Shown here in pieces: positions 3,522 through 59,126 of a DNA stretch of 64,000 nt (the first letter of the stretch is position 1; every line of letters starts with the position of its first letter). The notes under the pieces are model-generated. The model saw only the letters and a list, made by a program, of their open reading frames with translations. It was not told the origin of the DNA and did not search any database. The DNA is from Stigmatella aurantiaca (GTDB lineage Bacteria; Myxococcota; Myxococcia; Myxococcales; Myxococcaceae). The position numbers were made by a program, and so were the translations under genes. The stretch covers positions 62,001 to 126,000 of the forward strand of contig NZ_FOAP01000025.1 in NCBI RefSeq assembly GCF_900109545.1. Reading direction: 5' to 3'.

Positions 3522-4949
3522 TCAGGCCTGGGCTCGCGGGGCCTGGGGCATGCGCGGCAGCTTGAGGGTGAAGGTGGAGCCTTGCCCGGGCTGGCTGCGC
3601 ACCTCCACCGTGCCGCCGTGCGCGCGGGCAATCTCGCGGGTGATGAACAGCCCGAGCCCCAGACCGCTCACCTCGCTGGGACTGATGGCGCGCTCGAAAC
3701 GCTCGAAGATGCGCGGCAGATCCTCTGGGCGCAGCCCGAGTCCCTGGTCCTCGATCTCCAGCAGGGCCTGGTCCTCTTGGGTGGTGATGCGCACCGTCAC
3801 GGGCTTGCCCTGTCCGTACTTGAACGCGTTGCTCAGCAGGTTCGTCACCGCCTGCTCCAGGCGGGAGCGGTCCCACTGGCCCACGAGTTGGGTTCCGCTC
3901 TGAAGCGACAGCTGCATGGAGGCGGGCATGAACTCCGAGGACATGCGCTCCACCGTCTCCTCCACCAGCTCCCGCAGGTCCACCGGCTCGGTGCGCAGGG
4001 CGAGCTGGTGCGAGGTGATGCGCGACACGTCCAGCAGGTCCGAGACGAGCTGGGAGAGCCGGCGCACCTGGCGGTCGGTGCGCCCCAGGGTGCGCGTGAG
4101 CTGGGTTTCCTCGGGCGCCGCAGGGGCCGTGGCCCGCTGCGCGAGCAGGCGCTGCAGCCCTTGGACCTGGAGCTTGAGCGAGGTGAGGGGGGTGTTCAGC
4201 TCGTGGCTCGCCACTCCGATGAAGTCGTCACGCGCCTGCACCGCCCGCTCCATCTTCTCCTCCGAGGCGCGGAAGTGCTTCAGCTGGTGCATCATCCAGT
4301 CCACGCGCCGCTCCGCGGACTCGCGCCCCAGCACCATCGCGGGCGTCTCGTAGAAGAGGTTCGCGCACACCTGGCCGCCGAGGATGGCGATGGGGTGGGT
4401 GCGCAGCACGTCCCGGATCATGTCCGCCCCGAAGCGCCGGCGGTTGTACTGGCAGACCGCCAGCGAGCGGCTGCCCGGGAAGAATTCATTGAGCAGCGCT
4501 TCGTACTCCACCAGATCCTCGCACCCGCACTCGCGCCCCAGCGCCCACGTCATCTCTCCCGTGACGCGAAAGCCCGAGAAGCCGTTCGCCGCGGCTTGGC
4601 GCACCGTGTTCTCGAGGAAGGTGAGCATCGCGGGGGGGCTGAAGCTGCCGCTGTTCAGGTACGCCTCACGATTCGTCATGAACGTGAGCGCCCCGCGGCG
4701 TACATGCCCCTCCACGTCCACCCCGTGCGCCTGCAGCACGTGGCGCACCTCGTCGATGCTCTGGCCGTCGGTGATGTAGGCGCACACCTCGTTGCGTTCG
4801 AGGCCCGCGGTGATGAACGGGAGGAGCGCCGCCCACTGCTGCTCGGGCGTCTCGTACACGAGGCAGTAGTGGTCGCCGTGCTTCATCCCCCGCACCTGCT
4901 CGTGCAGGTGAGTGCTCTTGGCGGGACTTGGAGAGGAGGCCTGGAACAT
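3522..4949 (-). CDS. MEDS-domain sensor histidine kinase
   Basis: This 475-residue kinase begins with a MEDS (DcmR-type sensory) domain at about residues 20-195, recognised by GDHYCLVYETPEQQWAAL and a following RecA-like pattern (ERNEVCAYITD, FRVTGEMTWAL). This domain family is found next to hydrocarbon- or C1-sensing kinases and anti-sigma regulators. HisKA follows with a normal H-box (ASHELNTPLTSL), then N-box (VTNLLSNAFKYG), G1 (EDQGLGL) and G2 (GLGLGLFITREI). No membrane segment is visible, so it is cytoplasmic. Its gene converges with the degenerate receiver, with stop codons only nine bases apart. Ligand and partner are unknown. Confidence 0.87.
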   Translation of the reverse strand: MFQASSPSPAKSTHLHEQVRGMKHGDHYCLVYETPEQQWAALLPFITAGLERNEVCAYITDGQSIDEVRHVLQAHGVDVEGHVRRGALTFMTNREAYLNSGSFSPPAMLTFLENTVRQAAANGFSGFRVTGEMTWALGRECGCEDLVEYEALLNEFFPGSRSLAVCQYNRRRFGADMIRDVLRTHPIAILGGQVCANLFYETPAMVLGRESAERRVDWMMHQLKHFRASEEKMERAVQARDDFIGVASHELNTPLTSLKLQVQGLQRLLAQRATAPAAPEETQLTRTLGRTDRQVRRLSQLVSDLLDVSRITSHQLALRTEPVDLRELVEETVERMSSEFMPASMQLSLQSGTQLVGQWDRSRLEQAVTNLLSNAFKYGQGKPVTVRITTQEDQALLEIEDQGLGLRPEDLPRIFERFERAISPSEVSGLGLGLFITREIARAHGGTVEVRSQPGQGSTFTLKLPRMPQAPRAQA

Positions 4950-5129: not shown

Positions 5130-6044
5130 CTAGCGGGAGACGGAGGTGAGGGTGAAGTTCACGGCCGTCTCGGCCCCCGAGCCGATGGTGGCGGACGCGG
5201 GGTGGCTGGGGGCCGTGGTGAAGCTCACGCCCGCGGGCGCCACCACGTCCACCTGGTAGGTGCCGGGCAGCAGGAACTTGAAGTTCGCCACGAAGAGGCC
5301 GTCCGGGCTGGCGCTGAAGGGCAACGTCTCACGGCTGCCGTCCGCGTTGATGAGCACGGCGGAGAAGGCGCTCAGCTCCAGTGGGGTGTCACCGCCGGGC
5401 AGCTGCACACCGGTGCCCAGTGCCAACGTGGCCTTCACGTTGCCCGAGAACTGGAGGTCCGCGCCCTTGATGACGGGCCCCATCACCCACCGGCCCGAGT
5501 TGCCGGCGGCCCGGCCGAAGCTCTGCGCCACGTCGAAGTCCACGAGGATGACCTTCTGGGTGTCCTCGCTGGTGATGGTGACGTCCGCGTCCTTGTCGAA
5601 CTTCACCTTGAGGCCCGAGCTGCTGGCGCTCGGCATGTGCAGCTCGCCATCGGCCTGGGTGCCCTCGGGCAGCCCCGCGTAGTTGGGCGAGGTGGCGTAG
5701 ATGCGGCGCTGCCCATCCTCGTTCACCTGGATGTAGCCGCCCGAGATGACGAAGCGCAGCTCGCGGTAGGTGCCCTGGGGAACCTCGGCGTCCTTCACCA
5801 GATCCGCCGCGTCATTGGCCAGGGTGAGCAGGTTGACCGTCACCGGCTCGTCGAGCAGCACCACGTCTTCACTGCCCTTCAGATACACCTTGGTGATCGT
5901 GACCACCGCCTTCTCGAAGTTGTCTCCCGGCGCGTCGGTCAGCTTCACCGTGACACGGGCCGTGGAGTCATCGCCGCAGGCCGCCAGGCCAAGAACGCCC
6001 GTGGCAAGCAGCAGGCTGGAAAGCAGGGAACGGAGGGTCGTCAT
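5130..6044 (-). CDS. DUF4382 domain lipoprotein
   Basis: This is a secreted lipoprotein of about 304 residues. A signal peptide ends in the lipobox LAAC (GLAACGDD). The next ~150 residues match the DUF4382 pattern: VTVKLTDAPGDNFEKAVVTI, then a strand-rich body with YRELRFVISGGYI. The C-terminal ~80 residues look like a carboxypeptidase-regulatory/transthyretin-like beta domain (LLPGTYQVDVVAP, AVNFTLTSV). DUF4382 proteins are envelope lipoproteins of unknown function. The ATG at 6044 is chosen because it opens the signal peptide; a longer reading frame to 6116 would bury it. The neighbours on the minus strand are also lipoproteins, but the gap to the next one is about 118 bases, so joint transcription is uncertain. 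Confidence 0.8.
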   Translation of the reverse strand: MTTLRSLLSSLLLATGVLGLAACGDDSTARVTVKLTDAPGDNFEKAVVTITKVYLKGSEDVVLLDEPVTVNLLTLANDAADLVKDAEVPQGTYRELRFVISGGYIQVNEDGQRRIYATSPNYAGLPEGTQADGELHMPSASSSGLKVKFDKDADVTITSEDTQKVILVDFDVAQSFGRAAGNSGRWVMGPVIKGADLQFSGNVKATLALGTGVQLPGGDTPLELSAFSAVLINADGSRETLPFSASPDGLFVANFKFLLPGTYQVDVVAPAGVSFTTAPSHPASATIGSGAETAVNFTLTSVSR

Positions 6045-6162: not shown

Positions 6163-6699
6163 TCAGCCGATGCTGGGCCAGCACAGGCCCTGAACGCACG
6201 AGAGGCCGTTGCAGCAGGGGGTGGACCCTTCGGCATTGCACTCGGAGCCGGAGGGGAGGCAGGCGGGGCCCCCGTCCTGGTCTCCTCCCGCGCCTCCGTC
6301 TTCGCCTCCGCCTTCACCTCCGCCTTCACCTCCGCCTTCGCCTCCACCCTCGCCGGGGAAGGAGCCCCCGCCATCCGGGGGCGTTTCCGGCTCACCGCCG
6401 CAGGGGCCCACGGAATCGCCATGGCGCAGGTGTGCGCGCAGCGCGGGCTGGCCGACGGTGATGGTGTGCGCGTTGGCGGGGTTGCCGGGGGGGATGTGGC
6501 AGAGCGTGATGGCGCCGGTGTTACCCGGGCCCGCGCCTCCGTCCTGGGCCTCGCCTGGATTCGCGCCAGCGCCCAGATTGTTGTCCCCGTTGCTGAGCGT
6601 GGGGTCCGTCTCCATGGTGTCGCCGCAGCCACTGGCCATCAGCATGCACAGCGCCATCAGCACCGCGGACGAAGAAGCAGTCACTTTTCGCATCGGCAT
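6163..6699 (-). CDS. lipoprotein with Gly/Glu repeats and Cys-rich C-terminus
   Basis: This is a small lipoprotein of unknown function. The signal peptide ends at the lipobox ASGC (MLMASGCGD). It then has a segment with CHIPPGNPANAHTITV and a following HLRHGD, a motif recurring in secreted bacterial proteins. Next comes a low-complexity run of GGGE tetrapeptides, and finally a cysteine-rich module (ACLPSGSECN, PCCNGLSCVQGLC) resembling a small disulfide-bonded knot. The ATG at 6693 (MRKV) is an equally possible start. The coding sequence contains imperfect 12-base repeats at 6301-6345. It is probably displayed at the cell surface; no enzyme motif is visible. Confidence 0.7.
   Translation of the reverse strand: MPMRKVTASSSAVLMALCMLMASGCGDTMETDPTLSNGDNNLGAGANPGEAQDGGAGPGNTGAITLCHIPPGNPANAHTITVGQPALRAHLRHGDSVGPCGGEPETPPDGGGSFPGEGGGEGGGEGGGEGGGEDGGAGGDQDGGPACLPSGSECNAEGSTPCCNGLSCVQGLCWPSIG
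6301..6345. repeat. 12-base tandem repeat encoding GGGE units
   Basis: Imperfect tandem copies of TTCACCTCCGCC / TTCGCCTCCGCC lie inside the lipoprotein gene and encode its Gly-Gly-Gly-Glu run. The repeat is in frame, so copy-number changes would only alter linker length. Confidence 0.7.
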
Positions 6700-6795: not shown

Positions 6796-7383
6796 CTAGT
6801 TCTCGTCCGGCGTCAGCTCGAGCCTCAGCACCTTCTGCTCGCCGTGGCCCACGCAGCCCTGGCCCGCCGCATCCAGGAAGCCTGGCGCGGAGACACGTAC
6901 CTTGTAGCACCCATCGGGCAGGGGTCCCACCCGCCGCACGCCCTCGTTGTCCTCGGTGTCGAGCGGGAGGGACTCGAAGGGCGTGCCCTCCACGGAGGCG
7001 ACGGCCTGCGCCACCCGCAGGTTGCCCTGGGCCTGCACCTTCAAGAAGAGGGTGCTGGCCGGCTGGGGCGCCACATCCGCCACCTGCACGGACTGGCCCC
7101 CCTGCACCGTGAGCGCCACGCGCGCGGCCTTCTGCTCCGAGGCCACGATGAACAGCTCCGCTGGGCCCGCGGGCACGTCCTCCAGCGTGAAGTGGCCATC
7201 CGCCTCCAGCGTGGCGCGCACGTGGGGCGCTCCCACCAGGGAGATCAGCGCCACCGCCGGATCGAACTCGGTGAGCCGCCCGTGCACGGTGCCCGAGCGG
7301 AACGGCGCGTTGTCCAGGCTGCCGCAGGCCCCCAGGCCCAGCACCAGCAGCACCCCTGTCACCCGCGAGCATGTGCGAAGCAT
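6796..7383 (-). CDS. small lipoprotein, last gene of the sigma/caspase cluster
   Basis: This lipoprotein of 195 residues has the lipobox LGAC (VLGLGACGSLD). The body is all-beta in appearance, with a carboxypeptidase-regulatory-like pattern (ATLEADGHFTLEDVPAGPAEL) and a C-terminal segment with two cysteines (GCYKVRVSAPGF, GQGCVGHG) that may form a disulfide. Its ATG at 7383 overlaps the TGA of the caspase gene as ATGA, which implies translational coupling and is the main reason for choosing this start over the longer frame to 7512. It is the fourth gene of the ECF sigma/anti-sigma/caspase unit. It may be a partner or substrate of the caspase-like protein; that is inference. Confidence 0.75.
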   Translation of the reverse strand: MLRTCSRVTGVLLVLGLGACGSLDNAPFRSGTVHGRLTEFDPAVALISLVGAPHVRATLEADGHFTLEDVPAGPAELFIVASEQKAARVALTVQGGQSVQVADVAPQPASTLFLKVQAQGNLRVAQAVASVEGTPFESLPLDTEDNEGVRRVGPLPDGCYKVRVSAPGFLDAAGQGCVGHGEQKVLRLELTPDEN

Positions 7384-9029
7384 CAGAAGCGGTACCCCAC
7401 TCCAGCGTGTCCACCCGTGAAGCCCACGGCCTGGCCCTGTCCGTCCACCACCACATACGTCAGCATCAGCTGCGCTTGAGACGTGAGCTCCAGCCGCTCG
7501 CCCAGGCGCCACACCACGCCTCCCACCACCCCCGGGCTGACGGTGAAGTAGCGCTGGGCGCCGGAAAACGCCTCCACGTCAAAGGACCTGTGCAGGTACA
7601 GCGCGGCCACACGTGGCCCCGCGAAAAGCGTCAGCCGCTCCCAGCGCCACAGGTACGGCACCGCCGCCCCCACCGTGAGCGTGGTGTAGCCGAAGGGGAC
7701 CTCGCTGCCCTGGGCCACCTGGAGCGCGCGCCGCCCCCGGCCCAGGCTCAGGTCGGCGAGCAGCCCCAGGTTCTGGAGGGGCGCGTCCTCCAGCCGCAGC
7801 ACCACGCCGGCCTGGGGCGCCGGGGGCAGCACGGTGCGCCTCCGGGCGCCATCCACGAAGGAGAACACGCCGCCCACGAGCGACAGCGACCGCCGGGGGA
7901 GGGCGTCCGACAGCAGCCGCTCCAGGGGCAGCCGCTCCCCGGGCGCCACGTCGAGCTCGCGCCGGACGAGGACCGCGCCGCCCTTGGTGAGCTCCACCGT
8001 GCGCCGGCCGGGCCCCACCGCCGCGCCGCCGGGCAGCTCCAGGCGCGGCTCGCCGTCCACCTTGAGCGTGAAGCCGTCCAGCCGCGGGTGGTAGGAGAAC
8101 AGCTCGGGCTGGCCCGTGCGGCGCAGGTGCCCGGAGAGGATGATGGGGTCCGCGCCCACCTCGAGGATCTCCGCCGACGGCCGCTGCCGGCCCTCGGTGA
8201 AGGCGAAGGTGCGGCGCCGTGAGTAGTCGTGGGCCTCGGTGGCGGTGACTGCGCCGTCCGCGTTGCGGTCCGCGGCGCCGCCCAGGCCCTCGATGAGGAA
8301 GTGCGTATAGATGTCGTTCCGCAGGCTCTCGTCCTCGCGTGCGGTCTCGCCCCAGTCGCTCGCGGCGAACACCATGGAGGCCCGGGAGGACTCCTCCAGC
8401 GGCCGCGCGTAGAAGCCGGACTTGATGCCGGCCAGCTCCACCTCCAGCTCCTGGGGCAGGAGCGACTTGCCGCTGCCGCTGTGGCACGTGGCCAGCACCA
8501 GCAGCCGCCGCCGGCTGGGCAACTGCTCGAACTCCGCCTTGAGCGCGTCCATGGAGAGCGCCGTCTGGGGGATGGCACGGTAGGAGGCATCCCGCGTGAC
8601 GAGGTAGCGGCTCAGCTCGCCCCGGCCATCGCGCGCCAGCGTGCCGTGGGCGGACAGGTACACCAGCACCACGTCATCGGGCCGGGTGGCCTCCCGTTTG
8701 AGCTTCCGCAGGGCCGCGAGGATGGCCTCGCGCGTGGTCTCCTCCGGGCGCGTGAGGACACGCACCTGATCGAAGCGGCCACGCGCCGGGTCTCCCAGCA
8801 CCGCCGCCAGATCCGTGGCGTCCTTCCCGGAGTAGCGCAGGCCGCGCCACTGCGGATCATCGAACGAGGACACGCCCACCAGCAACGCGAACCGCCGGGG
8901 GGTGTAGGCGCGCGACAGGTCCGTCGCGTCGAGCTGGAGGGGGACGAGGCCCCCCTTCTCCCGGGACGTGGCGGACGGGCTCGCGCAGGCGGTGAGGATG
9001 GCGAGCAGGATGGGGATGAAGCGCTTCAC
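7383..9029 (-). CDS. caspase-like (peptidase C14) lipoprotein with barrel-like C-terminus
   Basis: This 548-residue protein starts with a lipoprotein signal (ILTACAS, lipid-accepting Cys at about 15). Residues ~45-290 form a C14 caspase-like domain: ALLVGVSSFDD, then the His of the dyad in VYLSAHGTL (His128) and the Cys in LATCHSGSG (Cys182); both catalytic residues are present. Residues ~300-375 look like a PEGA-type beta linker (FTLKVDGEPRLELPGG). The last ~160 residues have alternating amphipathic strands and end in GVGYRF, the terminal aromatic expected of an outer-membrane beta-barrel. It starts with GTG and overlaps the anti-sigma stop as GTGA. The suggested location is the periplasmic face of the outer membrane. 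Substrate specificity is unknown. Confidence 0.82.
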   Translation of the reverse strand: MKRFIPILLAILTACASPSATSREKGGLVPLQLDATDLSRAYTPRRFALLVGVSSFDDPQWRGLRYSGKDATDLAAVLGDPARGRFDQVRVLTRPEETTREAILAALRKLKREATRPDDVVLVYLSAHGTLARDGRGELSRYLVTRDASYRAIPQTALSMDALKAEFEQLPSRRRLLVLATCHSGSGKSLLPQELEVELAGIKSGFYARPLEESSRASMVFAASDWGETAREDESLRNDIYTHFLIEGLGGAADRNADGAVTATEAHDYSRRRTFAFTEGRQRPSAEILEVGADPIILSGHLRRTGQPELFSYHPRLDGFTLKVDGEPRLELPGGAAVGPGRRTVELTKGGAVLVRRELDVAPGERLPLERLLSDALPRRSLSLVGGVFSFVDGARRRTVLPPAPQAGVVLRLEDAPLQNLGLLADLSLGRGRRALQVAQGSEVPFGYTTLTVGAAVPYLWRWERLTLFAGPRVAALYLHRSFDVEAFSGAQRYFTVSPGVVGGVVWRLGERLELTSQAQLMLTYVVVDGQGQAVGFTGGHAGVGYRF

Positions 9030-9802
9030 GGCCGGGGAGGAGTTTGTCCTGGTTGGACGCGCACGTCGAACCGCGCCACGGTGCCTGGGGGGACTTCCGT
9101 GGCCTCCTCGGAAGGCGCCTCCCCTGCGGCGAAGGCCACCAGCATCAGCGTCAGCGAGCCCTCGTCTCCCTCCAGGCTCACTCCCGCGAGGCCCTGCGGG
9201 CCCTCCAGGTCATGCGTCCCGGCTTCCAGGGGAAAGCGGCCGAGCAACTCCGGATGCTGGCCCTCGCGCTGCTGGTAGAGCAGGGCGGTGCCGCTCTCGG
9301 TGGCGTGGTAGCGCAGGAGCAGCACGTCCTCCGGGGCCACGGCGGCCCCGGGATCCAACCGGCGCAACTGCCCATCCAGGCCCCGGGCCACCACCGCCAG
9401 CTCCAGGGAAATGCGGCCCGGGCCCTTCACCCCGGTCCAGGGCGTCCCCTGGATGGCGGAGGGGGCGCGCAGCGAGGGCACCAGCACCACTGCTAGCAGG
9501 CAGGCCGCGAGGGCTCCGGCCATCCATCCCCACTGCCGCGCGGAGGGGGAGGGGAGGCGCCGGGGTGGCTTCAGGGCGCGCACGGGGGGGAGCGGGGCCG
9601 GGAGGTCCTCTACCGCGGGAGCGGGGGCGAGCCGCAGCAGCGCGGCGTCCACCTCGCCATCGAGAAGTCCTGGTCCGTCGTGGCGGGCAAGGAAGGTCTC
9701 GCAGGCCTCGCAGGGGGCGGCCAGGTGCTCACGGAAGTAGGCGACGGCCTCGGGCTCCCGGGTGGAGAGCGCGTGCATCGCGGCGGCATCCAGGTGTCTC
9801 AT
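9026..9802 (-). CDS. membrane anti-sigma factor
   Basis: This 258-residue protein lies three bases after the ECF sigma gene. Its N-terminus has a zinc-finger-like His-Cys-Cys cluster (His26, Cys31, Cys34 in HLAAPCEACETF), comparable to the ZAS motif of anti-sigma factors although the His-Cys spacing is one residue longer. A Pro-rich linker leads to a single membrane helix at about residues 91-110 (GALAACLLAVVLV). The periplasmic part (~140 residues) is beta-rich with LDPGAAVAPEDVLLLRYHA, which resembles DUF4384-type sensor domains. The expected role is to hold the sigma factor at the membrane until an envelope signal arrives. The caspase gene overlaps its stop codon. Confidence 0.75.
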   Translation of the reverse strand: MRHLDAAAMHALSTREPEAVAYFREHLAAPCEACETFLARHDGPGLLDGEVDAALLRLAPAPAVEDLPAPLPPVRALKPPRRLPSPSARQWGWMAGALAACLLAVVLVPSLRAPSAIQGTPWTGVKGPGRISLELAVVARGLDGQLRRLDPGAAVAPEDVLLLRYHATESGTALLYQQREGQHPELLGRFPLEAGTHDLEGPQGLAGVSLEGDEGSLTLMLVAFAAGEAPSEEATEVPPGTVARFDVRVQPGQTPPRP

Positions 9803-9805
9803 GTC

Positions 9806-10417
9806 TCACTCCCACCGTCCGGCGAGCACCCGCTGGAGCAGCTCCCGTTTGATGCGCCCGCGGAAGCGCTCCAGCCGCATCGTCACCGCGCTCTTGCCCA
9901 CCCCGAGCTGCTCGGCAATCTCCCGCGCCGTGAGATGCCCCTCGATGTAGAACAGGTGCACGGTCGTCTTCTCCTCACCCTCGGGCAGCTCGGCGATGAG
10001 CTGGCGCACCACCGCGATGTCCCGCTCCACCTGGAGCGCCTCGGGAAAGGCCGGTACCGCCTCGGGGGCCGGATCCGGCAGTTCCTCTTCCAGCCGCCGG
10101 AGGGACGAGCGGCGCTCCAGGCGCGTGCGGGCCCGGTTCCGGGCAATGGCCAGCAGCCACGGCTCGAACGCCGCGGCCTCCTTCAGCCGGGGCAACCCCC
10201 GGAACGCCCGCACATAGGCCTCTTGAATGACGTCCTCCACCTCGTCGGCATCCAACGTGCCGAAACCCGCGACCAGCCGCGCCACCAGGGGACGGGTGCG
10301 CCGGTACAGCGCATTGAAGGCAGACCTCTCCCCTTGGGCCGCCCGCCGCACCTGGTCCGTGAGTCCCTCTGTTTCACCCACCTGGCCTCCAGACCTCCCG
10401 GCGCGCGGATCGGCCAC
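9806..10417 (-). CDS. ECF-type RNA polymerase sigma factor
   Basis: This is a 203-residue extracytoplasmic-function sigma factor. Region 2 is seen in DEVEDVIQEAYVRAFRGLPR and FEPWLLAIARNRA; region 4 is a helix-turn-helix with EGHLTAREIAEQLGVGKSAV. Regions 1.1 and 3 are absent, as expected for the ECF group. The start is a GTG at 10417 only eight bases from a GATAAT element on the same strand, so the transcript may be leaderless. It heads a unit with an anti-sigma factor, a caspase-like lipoprotein and a small lipoprotein. ECF sigma factors usually activate their own operon, so the caspase is probably part of the regulon. Confidence 0.92.
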   Translation of the reverse strand: MADPRAGRSGGQVGETEGLTDQVRRAAQGERSAFNALYRRTRPLVARLVAGFGTLDADEVEDVIQEAYVRAFRGLPRLKEAAAFEPWLLAIARNRARTRLERRSSLRRLEEELPDPAPEAVPAFPEALQVERDIAVVRQLIAELPEGEEKTTVHLFYIEGHLTAREIAEQLGVGKSAVTMRLERFRGRIKRELLQRVLAGRWE

Positions 10418-57512: not shown

Positions 57513-59126
57513 ATGTTTCAGAACATCGGGCTCTTCGCGCTGCTCCTCGGTGTGCTTGTCACCGTGCATGAGCTGGGTCACTTCCTCGTGGCGAAGGCCT
57601 GCGGGGTGAAGGTGCTCAAGTTCTCCTTTGGCTTCGGGCCCAAGCTCCTGGGGTTCGTCAAGGGAGAGACGGAGTACCAGATCGCGCTGCTGCCCCTGGG
57701 CGGCTACGTGAAGATGGCCGGGGACATTCCGGGCGAGGACCTGGCCCCCGAGGAGGCCCACCGGGGCTTCCTGGCCCAGCCGCCGTGGAAGCGCATGCTC
57801 ATCGTGCTGGCGGGCCCGGTGTTCAACCTGGCGTTCCCCATCCTCATCTACTTCTTCGTCTTCTGGGGCGCCCACGAAGTCACCTCCACGCGCGTGGGCA
57901 ACGTGCTGCCCGAGTCCCCCGCGGCCACCGCGGGCCTGCGCCCCGGGGACCGGGTGCTCGCGGTGGAGGGCGAGAAGGTCCGCACCTACCAGGAGATGTC
58001 GGAGGCCTTCATCGGCCGGTTCGAGCGGCCCATTCCGCTCACCATCGAGCGCGACGGCAAGCAGCAGATCGTCGAGGTGACGCCGCTCAAGAAGGTGGAG
58101 TCCTCGCCCATCGAGACCATCGAGCGGGGCGTCATGGGGGTGGAGTCCAGCTCCCGCGTGCCCATCCTCGGGGTGCCCGCGGATTCGGCGGCGGCGCGCG
58201 CCGGGCTGCGCACGTTCGACCGGGTGCTGGCCATCAACGGCACGGTGGTGCCGGACCAGGCGGTGCTCTACGACGTCCTGGCGAAGCAGTCCGGCACGCT
58301 GGAGCTGACGGTGCAGCGCGGGCGGCCGGTGGAGGCCGGCGCCGTGGTGGCCCGCCTGCCCGAGGTGCTGAAGCTCTCACTGGAGAAGCAGCCGGGCGAG
58401 GGCCTGGCGGCGCTCGGGGCCGAGTCGTCCGAGTTCTACGTGTCCTCCGTGCTGCCCGGCAGCCCCGCGGAGAAGGCGGGCCTGCGGTGGGGCGACCGGC
58501 TCGTGAGCCTCAATGGCGAGCCCATCCGCTCCTTCAACATGTTCCAGGTGCAGATCAGCGGGCTGGGCGAGAAGCCCTTTGGCCTGACGTGGCGGGGCGC
58601 GGAGGGTGAGCGCACGGTGCAGATCGCCCGGGCCCCCGTGCAGGTGAAGGAGGAGTTCGGCCAGGTGAGCACCGGCCCCATCCTGGGCGTGCAGTCCTGG
58701 GACTTCTCCTCGCCGGCCGAGCGCATCCAGCTCAACTTGGAGTGGCACGAGGCGCTCACGCAGTCGGCGCGCATCGTGCCCACCATCATCAAGCAGACGG
58801 TGAAGGCCATCGCCGGGCTGTTCGACAACTCGGTGCCGCTCAGCTCCATCGGCGGGCCCATCATGATGTACCAGATGGCGGCCCGGAGCTCCGAGCTGGG
58901 CTGGGACTACTACCTGCAGCTCATGGCGGCCATCTCCATCAACCTGGGCGTGGTGAACCTGCTGCCCATCCCCATCCTGGACGGGTTCCACCTGGTGGCC
59001 GCGGGCTGGGAGAGCGTGCGCCGGCGCCCCATTCCGGTGCGCGTGCGCGAGGTGGCCAACGTCGTAGGGCTGGCCATGCTGGTGGCCCTGATGCTGGTGG
59101 CCTTCTTCAACGACATCACCCGGTGA
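57513..59126 (+). CDS. rseP: RseP/site-2 intramembrane metalloprotease with three PDZ domains
   Basis: This 537-residue protein cleaves membrane-spanning substrates such as anti-sigma factors and remnant signal peptides. Zinc-binding HELGH at residues 19-23 and the NLLPIPILDG loop with Asp490 are intact. Between the first and last helices lie three PDZ-like modules: about 125-190 (SPAATAGLRPGDRVLAV), 215-275 (SAAARAGLRTFDRVLAI) and 305-370 (SPAEKAGLRWGDRLVSL), where E. coli RseP has two and B. subtilis RasP one. The length beyond 450 residues comes from the additional module. The following rlpA-like gene overlaps or nearly overlaps the stop. Confidence 0.93.
   Translation: MFQNIGLFALLLGVLVTVHELGHFLVAKACGVKVLKFSFGFGPKLLGFVKGETEYQIALLPLGGYVKMAGDIPGEDLAPEEAHRGFLAQPPWKRMLIVLAGPVFNLAFPILIYFFVFWGAHEVTSTRVGNVLPESPAATAGLRPGDRVLAVEGEKVRTYQEMSEAFIGRFERPIPLTIERDGKQQIVEVTPLKKVESSPIETIERGVMGVESSSRVPILGVPADSAAARAGLRTFDRVLAINGTVVPDQAVLYDVLAKQSGTLELTVQRGRPVEAGAVVARLPEVLKLSLEKQPGEGLAALGAESSEFYVSSVLPGSPAEKAGLRWGDRLVSLNGEPIRSFNMFQVQISGLGEKPFGLTWRGAEGERTVQIARAPVQVKEEFGQVSTGPILGVQSWDFSSPAERIQLNLEWHEALTQSARIVPTIIKQTVKAIAGLFDNSVPLSSIGGPIMMYQMAARSSELGWDYYLQLMAAISINLGVVNLLPIPILDGFHLVAAGWESVRRRPIPVRVREVANVVGLAMLVALMLVAFFNDITR

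Follow-up and report, generated by a model that had tools for sequence, protein, structure and literature searches.

In the sigma-E/RseA/DegS/RseP pathway an anti-sigma factor of the inner membrane is cut on its periplasmic side and then by RseP, which frees the extracytoplasmic function (ECF) sigma factor. In cell-surface signalling of the FecA/FecR/FecI and FpvA/FpvR type an outer-membrane barrel with a periplasmic N-terminal domain faces the anti-sigma. Excerpts of PMC10028731 name the sigma-E/RseA/DegS/RseP pathway of regulated proteolysis and describe a type III-E CRISPR system in which the caspase-like protease Csx29 cuts Csx30, an inhibitor of the ECF-type CASP-sigma. Metacaspase-sigma-70 operons were reported in Myxococcus in 2012, four of them in M. 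xanthus and others in further genera (excerpts of PMC3501461), and neighbourhoods of EACC2 contain caspases beside an ECF sigma gene (excerpts of PMC8195603). Here we describe an operon of this kind in a 64,000-nucleotide stretch of Stigmatella aurantiaca (assembly GCF_900109545.1, contig NZ_FOAP01000025.1, positions 62,001 to 126,000), hereafter referred to as the window. It encodes an ECF sigma factor, a membrane anti-sigma, a caspase predicted to be held at the outer membrane and a lipoprotein. The analysis is built on computed features, namely gene order, predicted folds, motif conservation, the restriction of a Lys-Gly pair to caspase-linked anti-sigmas and a repeated promoter-like motif. 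Since caspase-linked anti-sigmas almost always carry the Lys-Gly pair in their periplasmic linker, we propose that the caspase acts upstream of the sigma factor, as the sequences suggest.

The four genes lie in a tight row on the minus strand. The sigma gene (9806..10381, with the open reading frame (ORF) open to a GTG at 10417) ends three bases before the ATG of the anti-sigma gene (9026..9802). The anti-sigma gene overlaps the caspase gene (7383..9029, GTG start, 548 amino acids) by GTGA, and the caspase stop and the start of the lipoprotein gene (6796..7383) have one base in common, in the sequence TGATG at 7383. A reading made earlier from the sequence alone (hereafter the sequence-only reading) had the packing, the three-base gap and the GTGA overlap right; the ATGA overlap that it gave for the last junction was replaced by the single shared base. 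The sigma protein scored 75.1 bits against TIGR02937 (cut-off 42.9) and matched Sigma70_r2 with E 1.2e-13, in agreement with its assignment as an ECF sigma factor. The lipoprotein, product of the last gene, carries a CarboxypepD_reg domain (PF13620, E 7.4e-10), and a homologue is found 3′ of the caspase gene in all 26 loci L031-L056.

Pfam searches with the window anti-sigma returned nothing at E values up to 1, an RseA-type domain included. The protein has one transmembrane (TM) helix and an N-terminal Hx4Cx2C motif, which upholds its earlier description as a membrane anti-sigma; the general form H-x3..7-C-x2-C was found in 55 of 59 anti-sigmas, the window protein among them. In an AlphaFold2 model with a predicted local distance difference test (pLDDT) score of 83.7, a TM helix (residues 88-112) is followed by a linker (113-132) and a beta domain (133-249). 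Secondary structure is not predicted for the linker, and its block pLDDT is 53-58. PF14326 (DUF4384) matched one of the 55 aligned anti-sigmas and did not match the window protein. Alignment with DUF4384 anti-sigmas by hhalign gave a probability of 98.7 and E 2.8e-16 over a stretch including the TM helix and the Lys-Gly pair, so that the periplasmic domain appears DUF4384-like in the sense of a distant relation only. Foldseek returned weak beta-sandwich matches only (best CARDB, E 8.8e-4), which were set aside. DUF4384 is also fused to orthocaspases and pseudo-orthocaspases (excerpts of PMC7475262 and PMC6426788).

The linker contains Lys126-Gly127 (9422..9427, minus strand), which we propose as the site of caspase cleavage. 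In an alignment of anti-sigmas from 54 of 58 loci and the window, reaching down to 20% identity, K126, G127 and G195 were the sole invariant columns (55/55). Inspection of the four omitted proteins revealed the pair in L051, L056 and L095 and none in L085. Thus, Lys-Gly is present at most 40 residues after the TM helix in 58 of the 59 anti-sigmas collected from caspase units, with L085 as the exception; the chance expectation is 0.06 per stretch of this size, from the rate of the pair elsewhere in the same proteins. The spacing from TM helix to Lys varies from 9 to 22 residues, and this variation in a flexible stretch fits a protease site better than an element of the fold. A control was provided by 115 over-cut-off ECF loci from three genomes, which were checked for a translationally coupled TM gene. 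Under our ad hoc rule 65 of them had no coupled TM gene and stayed unscored, and nine unlinked genes with several TM helices were set aside. The pair was present in eight of nine caspase-linked anti-sigmas, the ninth (L196) having Arg-Gly, and in one of 32 products of unlinked single-TM genes, a protein with its TM helix at residues 7-23 (Fisher p ~8e-7, a value computed over genes of related genomes that are not independent). Two of the nine set-aside proteins also contain Lys-Gly; one (L214) is an ordinary protein with several TM helices, the other (L269) an anti-sigma beside a barrel-like gene.

A DUF4384 search of 59 genomes listed 58 loci, and a caspase lay within ~1.5 kb at 23 of the 30 examined. 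Lys-Gly was found between the TM helix and the domain in every evaluable caspase-linked protein (22/22). It was also present in L132 and L138, where the caspase match lies ~1.3 kb off on the other side, and absent from L146 and L149, two TM-bearing proteins of one genus with no caspase within ~1.5 kb. L151 is cut by a contig end, and L133, L144 and L159 are without a TM helix (L133 and L144 contain Lys-Gly strings). The idea that Lys-Gly is a fixed structural element of DUF4384 was rejected on the two TM-bearing, caspase-free proteins that are without it (n=2, one genus).

The caspase (7383..9029) matched Peptidase C14 (PF00656) with 44.3 bits (cut-off 21.4). Catalytic His128 (8646..8648) and Cys182 (8484..8486) were invariant in 23 of 23 proteins in one alignment and in 56 of 56 in a larger one, so the dyad recognized in the sequence-only reading is intact throughout. 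For the caspase alignment, 61 proteins from 68 loci were picked by length and score and 55 were used after omission of six near-duplicates; another alignment comprised 37 of 58 loci, the window and L127. The lipobox was also found as described, in the form LTAC with Cys15, and the column holds Cys in 53 of 56 aligned proteins; by this lipobox the caspase is a predicted lipoprotein. A single-sequence search of the PDB gave no match at E 0.01, and a profile search does recover metacaspases. Against NF047832 (EACC1-associated caspase) the protein scored 97.4 bits, under the NCBIfam cut-off of 140, and membership of EACC1 was rejected on this score. The locus is like EACC1/EACC2 systems in having a caspase beside an ECF sigma gene and in this weak match; EACC caspases, however, have the constant EACC domain where the window caspase has a lipobox and a barrel. 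Asp70 aligns with the Asp of the metacaspase motif 'LRGCxND', which we take to be an S1-pocket residue.

An AlphaFold2 model computed with 56 sequences (mean pLDDT 83.1) revealed, in order, the lipobox segment, a low-confidence segment (16-28), the caspase domain (~42-303) with a low-confidence loop at 201-216, a small beta region (~309-368) and a tail. The first part matched MALT1 and caspases in Foldseek; with VIA, residues ~41-303 matched MALT1, metacaspase-4 and caspases including caspase-7 with Z 22-24. The tail (residues 380-548, 7386..7892) consists of eight long strands plus one five-residue strand over 380-547 and matched OmpX (E 4.2e-7) and NspA (E 2.3e-7), as well as OmpA and Ail. 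The VIA alignments are limited to the caspase part, and barrel closure was judged from the Foldseek matches rather than measured. A soluble beta-sandwich, the alternative considered for the tail, was not seen in the predicted model, which has the eight long strands and the OmpX/OmpA-type matches, so the barrel-like tail and the anchor-caspase-barrel layout of the sequence-only reading hold on prediction by AlphaFold2, Foldseek and the lipobox. GYRF forms the C-terminal end of the caspase in 26 of 26 loci (L031-L056), and the tail is modelled as an eight-stranded outer-membrane barrel with an aromatic last residue. Both ends of the OmpA barrel face the periplasm; if the same holds here, the caspase domain would be periplasmic.

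Two variants of this architecture were noticed in relatives. A stand-alone protein of 211 amino acids (L126:4249-4884, genome G006) combines a lipobox and a Lys-Gly linker with a tail that shares 64% identity with residues 378-548, and has no caspase domain; it looks like a deletion derivative of the caspase. The 769-residue caspase at L113:3938-6247 (G000:C13), 3′ of an ECF gene and a Lys-Gly anti-sigma, has a long G/N-rich run of beta-type repeats before its C-terminus.

The unit is widespread. Caspase matches were found in 51 of 59 related genomes at E 1e-3 and in 117 of 147 genomes of the class at E 1e-20, with relatives in Corallococcus, Myxococcus, Pyxidicoccus, Archangium, Citreicoccus, Hyalangium, Anaeromyxobacter and metagenome-assembled genomes. 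From 164 relatives the best 80, at 78 loci, were taken, and L031-L100 were used for gene order; L084 and L096 of these 70 gave no caspase ORF, and L101-L108, from other phyla, stood outside the count. Sigma and anti-sigma genes lie directly upstream of the caspase gene in 58 of the 68 remaining loci, more often than chance would give. Of the ten loci without the sigma gene, five (L034, L037, L038, L039 and L077) begin close to the end of a contig, and the remaining five are L070, L093, L094, L098 and L100. A more distant class of caspases (26-31% identity across most of the protein) shares the dyad and gave no lipobox match; a sigma homologue lies upstream in five of six loci examined. In the window's genome four C14 proteins were found, each encoded 3′ of an ECF gene, and the same holds for two of two in G044 and three of five in G028. 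The sigma/anti-sigma/caspase unit is an old family.

Two observations concern the origin of individual sequences. Corallococcus proteins share 84-87% identity with the window caspase, although those of the same-genus genomes G002, G003 and G006 (G001 apart) share 75-80%, possibly a matter of horizontal transfer or of taxonomy. Records titled 'Comamonas sp. KCTC 72670' (BNCN01; L042 and L063) contain two caspase units of myxobacterial type (77% and 52%), and this assembly is probably mislabelled.

We propose that the operon encodes a trans-envelope switch in which the outer-membrane-tethered caspase serves as site-1 protease of the anti-sigma, a reading to which we give somewhat better than even chances. 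The caspase would lie in the periplasm, attached to the inner side of the outer membrane through its N-terminal lipid and its C-terminal eight-stranded barrel. A signal at the outer membrane, whether received by the barrel or the partner lipoprotein or arising from envelope damage, would activate it, and activation may include self-cleavage after Lys203 and/or Lys25. The next step would be cleavage of the inner-membrane anti-sigma on the C-terminal side of Lys126, within the flexible linker that joins its TM helix to its DUF4384-like domain, and an RseP-type M50 protease would perform site-2 cleavage and release the sigma factor. The freed sigma would transcribe its own operon, giving positive autoregulation, together with two neighbouring lipoprotein genes. 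Cleavage, its direction, the signal, the site-2 step and promoter use are what we infer. The window contains a candidate site-2 protease, an RseP-type M50 protease with PDZ domains (57513..59126, plus strand; PF02163 E 1.7e-68, TIGR00054 over cut-off). The contig carries both of the RseP homologues that score over the cut-off. The other one lies ~7.5 kb further and outside the window (G000:C25:128579-129541), and the one at 57513..59126 is no more than a candidate for a protease dedicated to the caspase unit.

Set beside the described systems, the proposed switch is like sigma-E/RseA/DegS/RseP in its inner-membrane anti-sigma, proposed periplasmic cut, RseP step and freed ECF sigma. In contrast to that pathway, the proposed site-1 enzyme is a caspase-fold cysteine protease that is anchored at the outer membrane and comes from the sigma operon itself, and the anti-sigma domain is DUF4384-like, unlike RseA. 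As in the Csx29/Csx30/CASP-sigma system, the protein that restrains an ECF-type sigma would be the target of a caspase-like protease. Csx29, however, is an RNA-activated TPR-CHAT protease of a Cas7-11 complex, whereas here a C14 domain carries a lipid anchor and a barrel; Pfam revealed no CHAT or Cas match in the four operon proteins, the rest of the genome not having been searched for Cas7-11. The resemblance to FecA/FecR/FecI and FpvA/FpvR lies in an outer-membrane barrel with a periplasmic N-terminal domain opposite the anti-sigma, but the barrel here is predicted to be eight-stranded (~170 residues) and not TonB-dependent, and the N-terminal domain is a protease.

Next to the sigma gene lies a promoter-like motif. 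An alignment of 24 upstream regions, gap-rich elsewhere, revealed conserved GTGGCC-N15/16-GGTC followed in most by CAGGTGGGT, and the GTG within CAGGTGGGT is likely the shared sigma start. The start of the window's sigma gene is thus probably the GTG at 10381, common to most aligned relatives, as the more distal GTG at 10417 falls on the conserved motif; L049, L050 and L054 have a slightly earlier ATG in place of the shared GTG. In the window the motif reads GTGGCC-N16-GGTCT (P1, 10391..10417, minus strand, as are P2, P3 and the two lipoprotein genes below), and we infer that it is an ECF-type promoter. The sigma copy was found in 31 of 58 loci. Of 17 hits in the genome, three share a strand and a span of less than 4.3 kb at this locus, each 5′ of a gene, and two extra copies would fall in such a span by chance with a probability of ~3e-5 (rough estimate). 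P2 (6749..6775) precedes a gene for a putative regulon lipoprotein with a Cys-rich tail and no Pfam match (6163..6699), and P3 (6084..6110) precedes that of a second one, with a DUF4382 domain (5130..6044; PF14321 E 2.3e-28). P2 and P3 occur together in seven Corallococcus loci and P3 alone in three more, and the genes after them resemble, by eye, the same two lipoprotein genes. The repetition of the motif before two neighbouring lipoprotein genes suggests a local regulon. In the motif scan of the loci, 35 forward hits fell within caspase coding sequence and were uninformative, and four hits were on the other strand. Just past the two lipoprotein genes the window encodes a sensor histidine kinase with a MEDS domain (3522-4949).

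The shared operon, the translational coupling and the motif 5′ of the sigma gene would also be expected if the caspase were an output of the sigma factor, that is, if a regulator of envelope stress or development induced an outer-membrane protease acting on other periplasmic or surface proteins in lysis, predation or remodelling. A role of Myxococcus metacaspases in autolysis was thought conceivable by Asplund-Samuelsson in 2012 (excerpts of PMC3501461). This explanation, which we consider unlikely though the best of the alternatives, leaves unexplained both the Lys-Gly pair of the anti-sigma and its rarity in units without a caspase; nor is it exclusive, as autoregulated systems do both. The sequence-only reading had the sigma system controlling the caspase, and at most half of this stands: the operon is shared, but the Lys-Gly pair points to the caspase acting upstream.

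Arabidopsis MC4 reportedly cuts after Arg or Lys and processes itself. Orthocaspases cut after Arg or Lys, and MaOC1 is self-processing (excerpts of PMC7475262). In the caspases studied here Lys also recurs at two places. Lys203 (8421..8423), in the loop 201-216 after the catalytic Cys with pLDDT below 50, is Lys in 56 of 56 caspases of class 1, to which the window protein belongs. In distant myxobacterial caspases Lys-Gly occurs 7-13 residues after the Cys in all 32 distinct proteins fitting the Cys pattern; the loop was read only in such proteins, so that L196, which does not fit, was excluded, and L027 and L277 were included though without an upstream ECF match. Between the lipid Cys and the caspase domain, Lys25-Gly26 (8952..8957) is conserved in 54 of 56 proteins at that column, plus L085, where it is misaligned; L093 has Lys-Asp and no lipobox, and the 2.5 kb upstream of it contain no ECF match, the only nearby one being ~0.9 kb downstream. 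As judged from column conservation, Lys25-Gly26 and Lys203 are possible self-processing sites. It may be that a whole class of envelope signalling systems, found throughout the myxobacteria, has an outer-membrane-tethered caspase as dedicated site-1 protease of an ECF anti-sigma, with cleavage at an almost invariant Lys|Gly of the kind that also marks the processing sites of the caspases themselves; we regard this as evenly balanced.

These sites bear on an explanation that we rate as slightly less probable than that of the caspase as an output of the sigma factor. In it, Lys-Gly serves for docking or has a structural role, holding anti-sigma and caspase together without cutting or bringing the linker in contact with another partner. 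Invariance alone fits binding as well as cutting, and L269 keeps the pair with a barrel-like, caspase-less partner. The recurrence of Lys, mostly as Lys-Gly, in the caspase loop and N-terminal linker nevertheless suggests a substrate motif, the linker has no predicted structure, and the DUF4384 domain needs no such pair, judging by the two TM-bearing, caspase-free proteins without it (n=2). That the barrel is the real sensor and relays its signal when the caspase domain touches the anti-sigma, as in FecA/FecR, with protease activity secondary, is improbable: the topology (outer-membrane barrel, periplasmic N-terminal domain, anti-sigma, ECF sigma) is the same and caspase-less versions exist (L126 and L269), but the dyad in 56 of 56 proteins appears to be under selection, and Pfam found no FecR or TonB-receptor match in the operon proteins and aligned anti-sigmas.

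Several points weigh against site-1 cleavage by the caspase. Cleavage of the anti-sigma is itself a proposal from sequence, the outer-membrane location of the caspase is a prediction, Lys-Gly could be a docking site, and related genomes are not independent. The anti-sigma next to the divergent ECF-linked caspase L196 (G000:C7) has Arg-Gly, which is common by chance, in place of Lys-Gly; that of L085 has no Lys-Gly, yet its caspase retains the dyad; and L269 retains a Lys-Gly anti-sigma beside a barrel-like gene without a caspase domain. Two of the five G028 caspases have no ECF match upstream. Lys-Gly near the Cys is also present in one of nine outgroup caspases (L101-L108), namely L104. Two residues before the catalytic Cys, class 1 proteins have Ala (Ala180; 71/71) and not Asp, which leaves the usual basic S1 pocket incomplete; the corresponding residue is Asp in the distant class. 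The promoter-like motif is missing at 27 of 58 loci, including subfamily B and many distant ones, as expected if paralogues are insulated, and GTGGCC-N15/16-GGTCT has 17 hits in 9.37 Mb compared to 32 for the reversed control, with no genome-wide enrichment.

Genome G028 contains two incomplete units. At L269:2757-3368 an ECF gene and a Lys-Gly anti-sigma are followed by a barrel-like gene encoding 203 amino acids without a caspase domain, which was lost or never present. L276, one of the two G028 caspases without an upstream ECF match, still has a Lys-Gly anti-sigma upstream. Together they are possibly a split or cross-talking pair.

The sigma-caspase operon itself is not new, having been reported in 2012, and the genomic association is identical to that of the Myxococcus metacaspase-sigma-70 operons (excerpts of PMC3501461). 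In contrast to that account, in which the word 'barrel' is absent from the main text and the passages concerned give no linker motif or mechanism, we propose a direction of control and an anti-sigma substrate, which appear to be new. We found no paper in the open-access literature that treats an anti-sigma together with a metacaspase, or a caspase domain with an ECF factor, and the proposed substrate and direction were not found there among the best-ranked entries of longer lists.

The function of bacterial caspase homologues is largely open, with cell death as the usual guess. Here genomic evidence names a specific, testable substrate, the neighbouring anti-sigma, and a defined bond, K126|G127. 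If the proposal is true, an outer-membrane caspase-fold enzyme joins the proteases that switch on sigma factors, and the sigma-caspase operons reported in 2012 would be explained. The switch would also be a non-CRISPR parallel to Csx29/Csx30, and a caspase-type protease would transduce signals in living cells instead of killing them.

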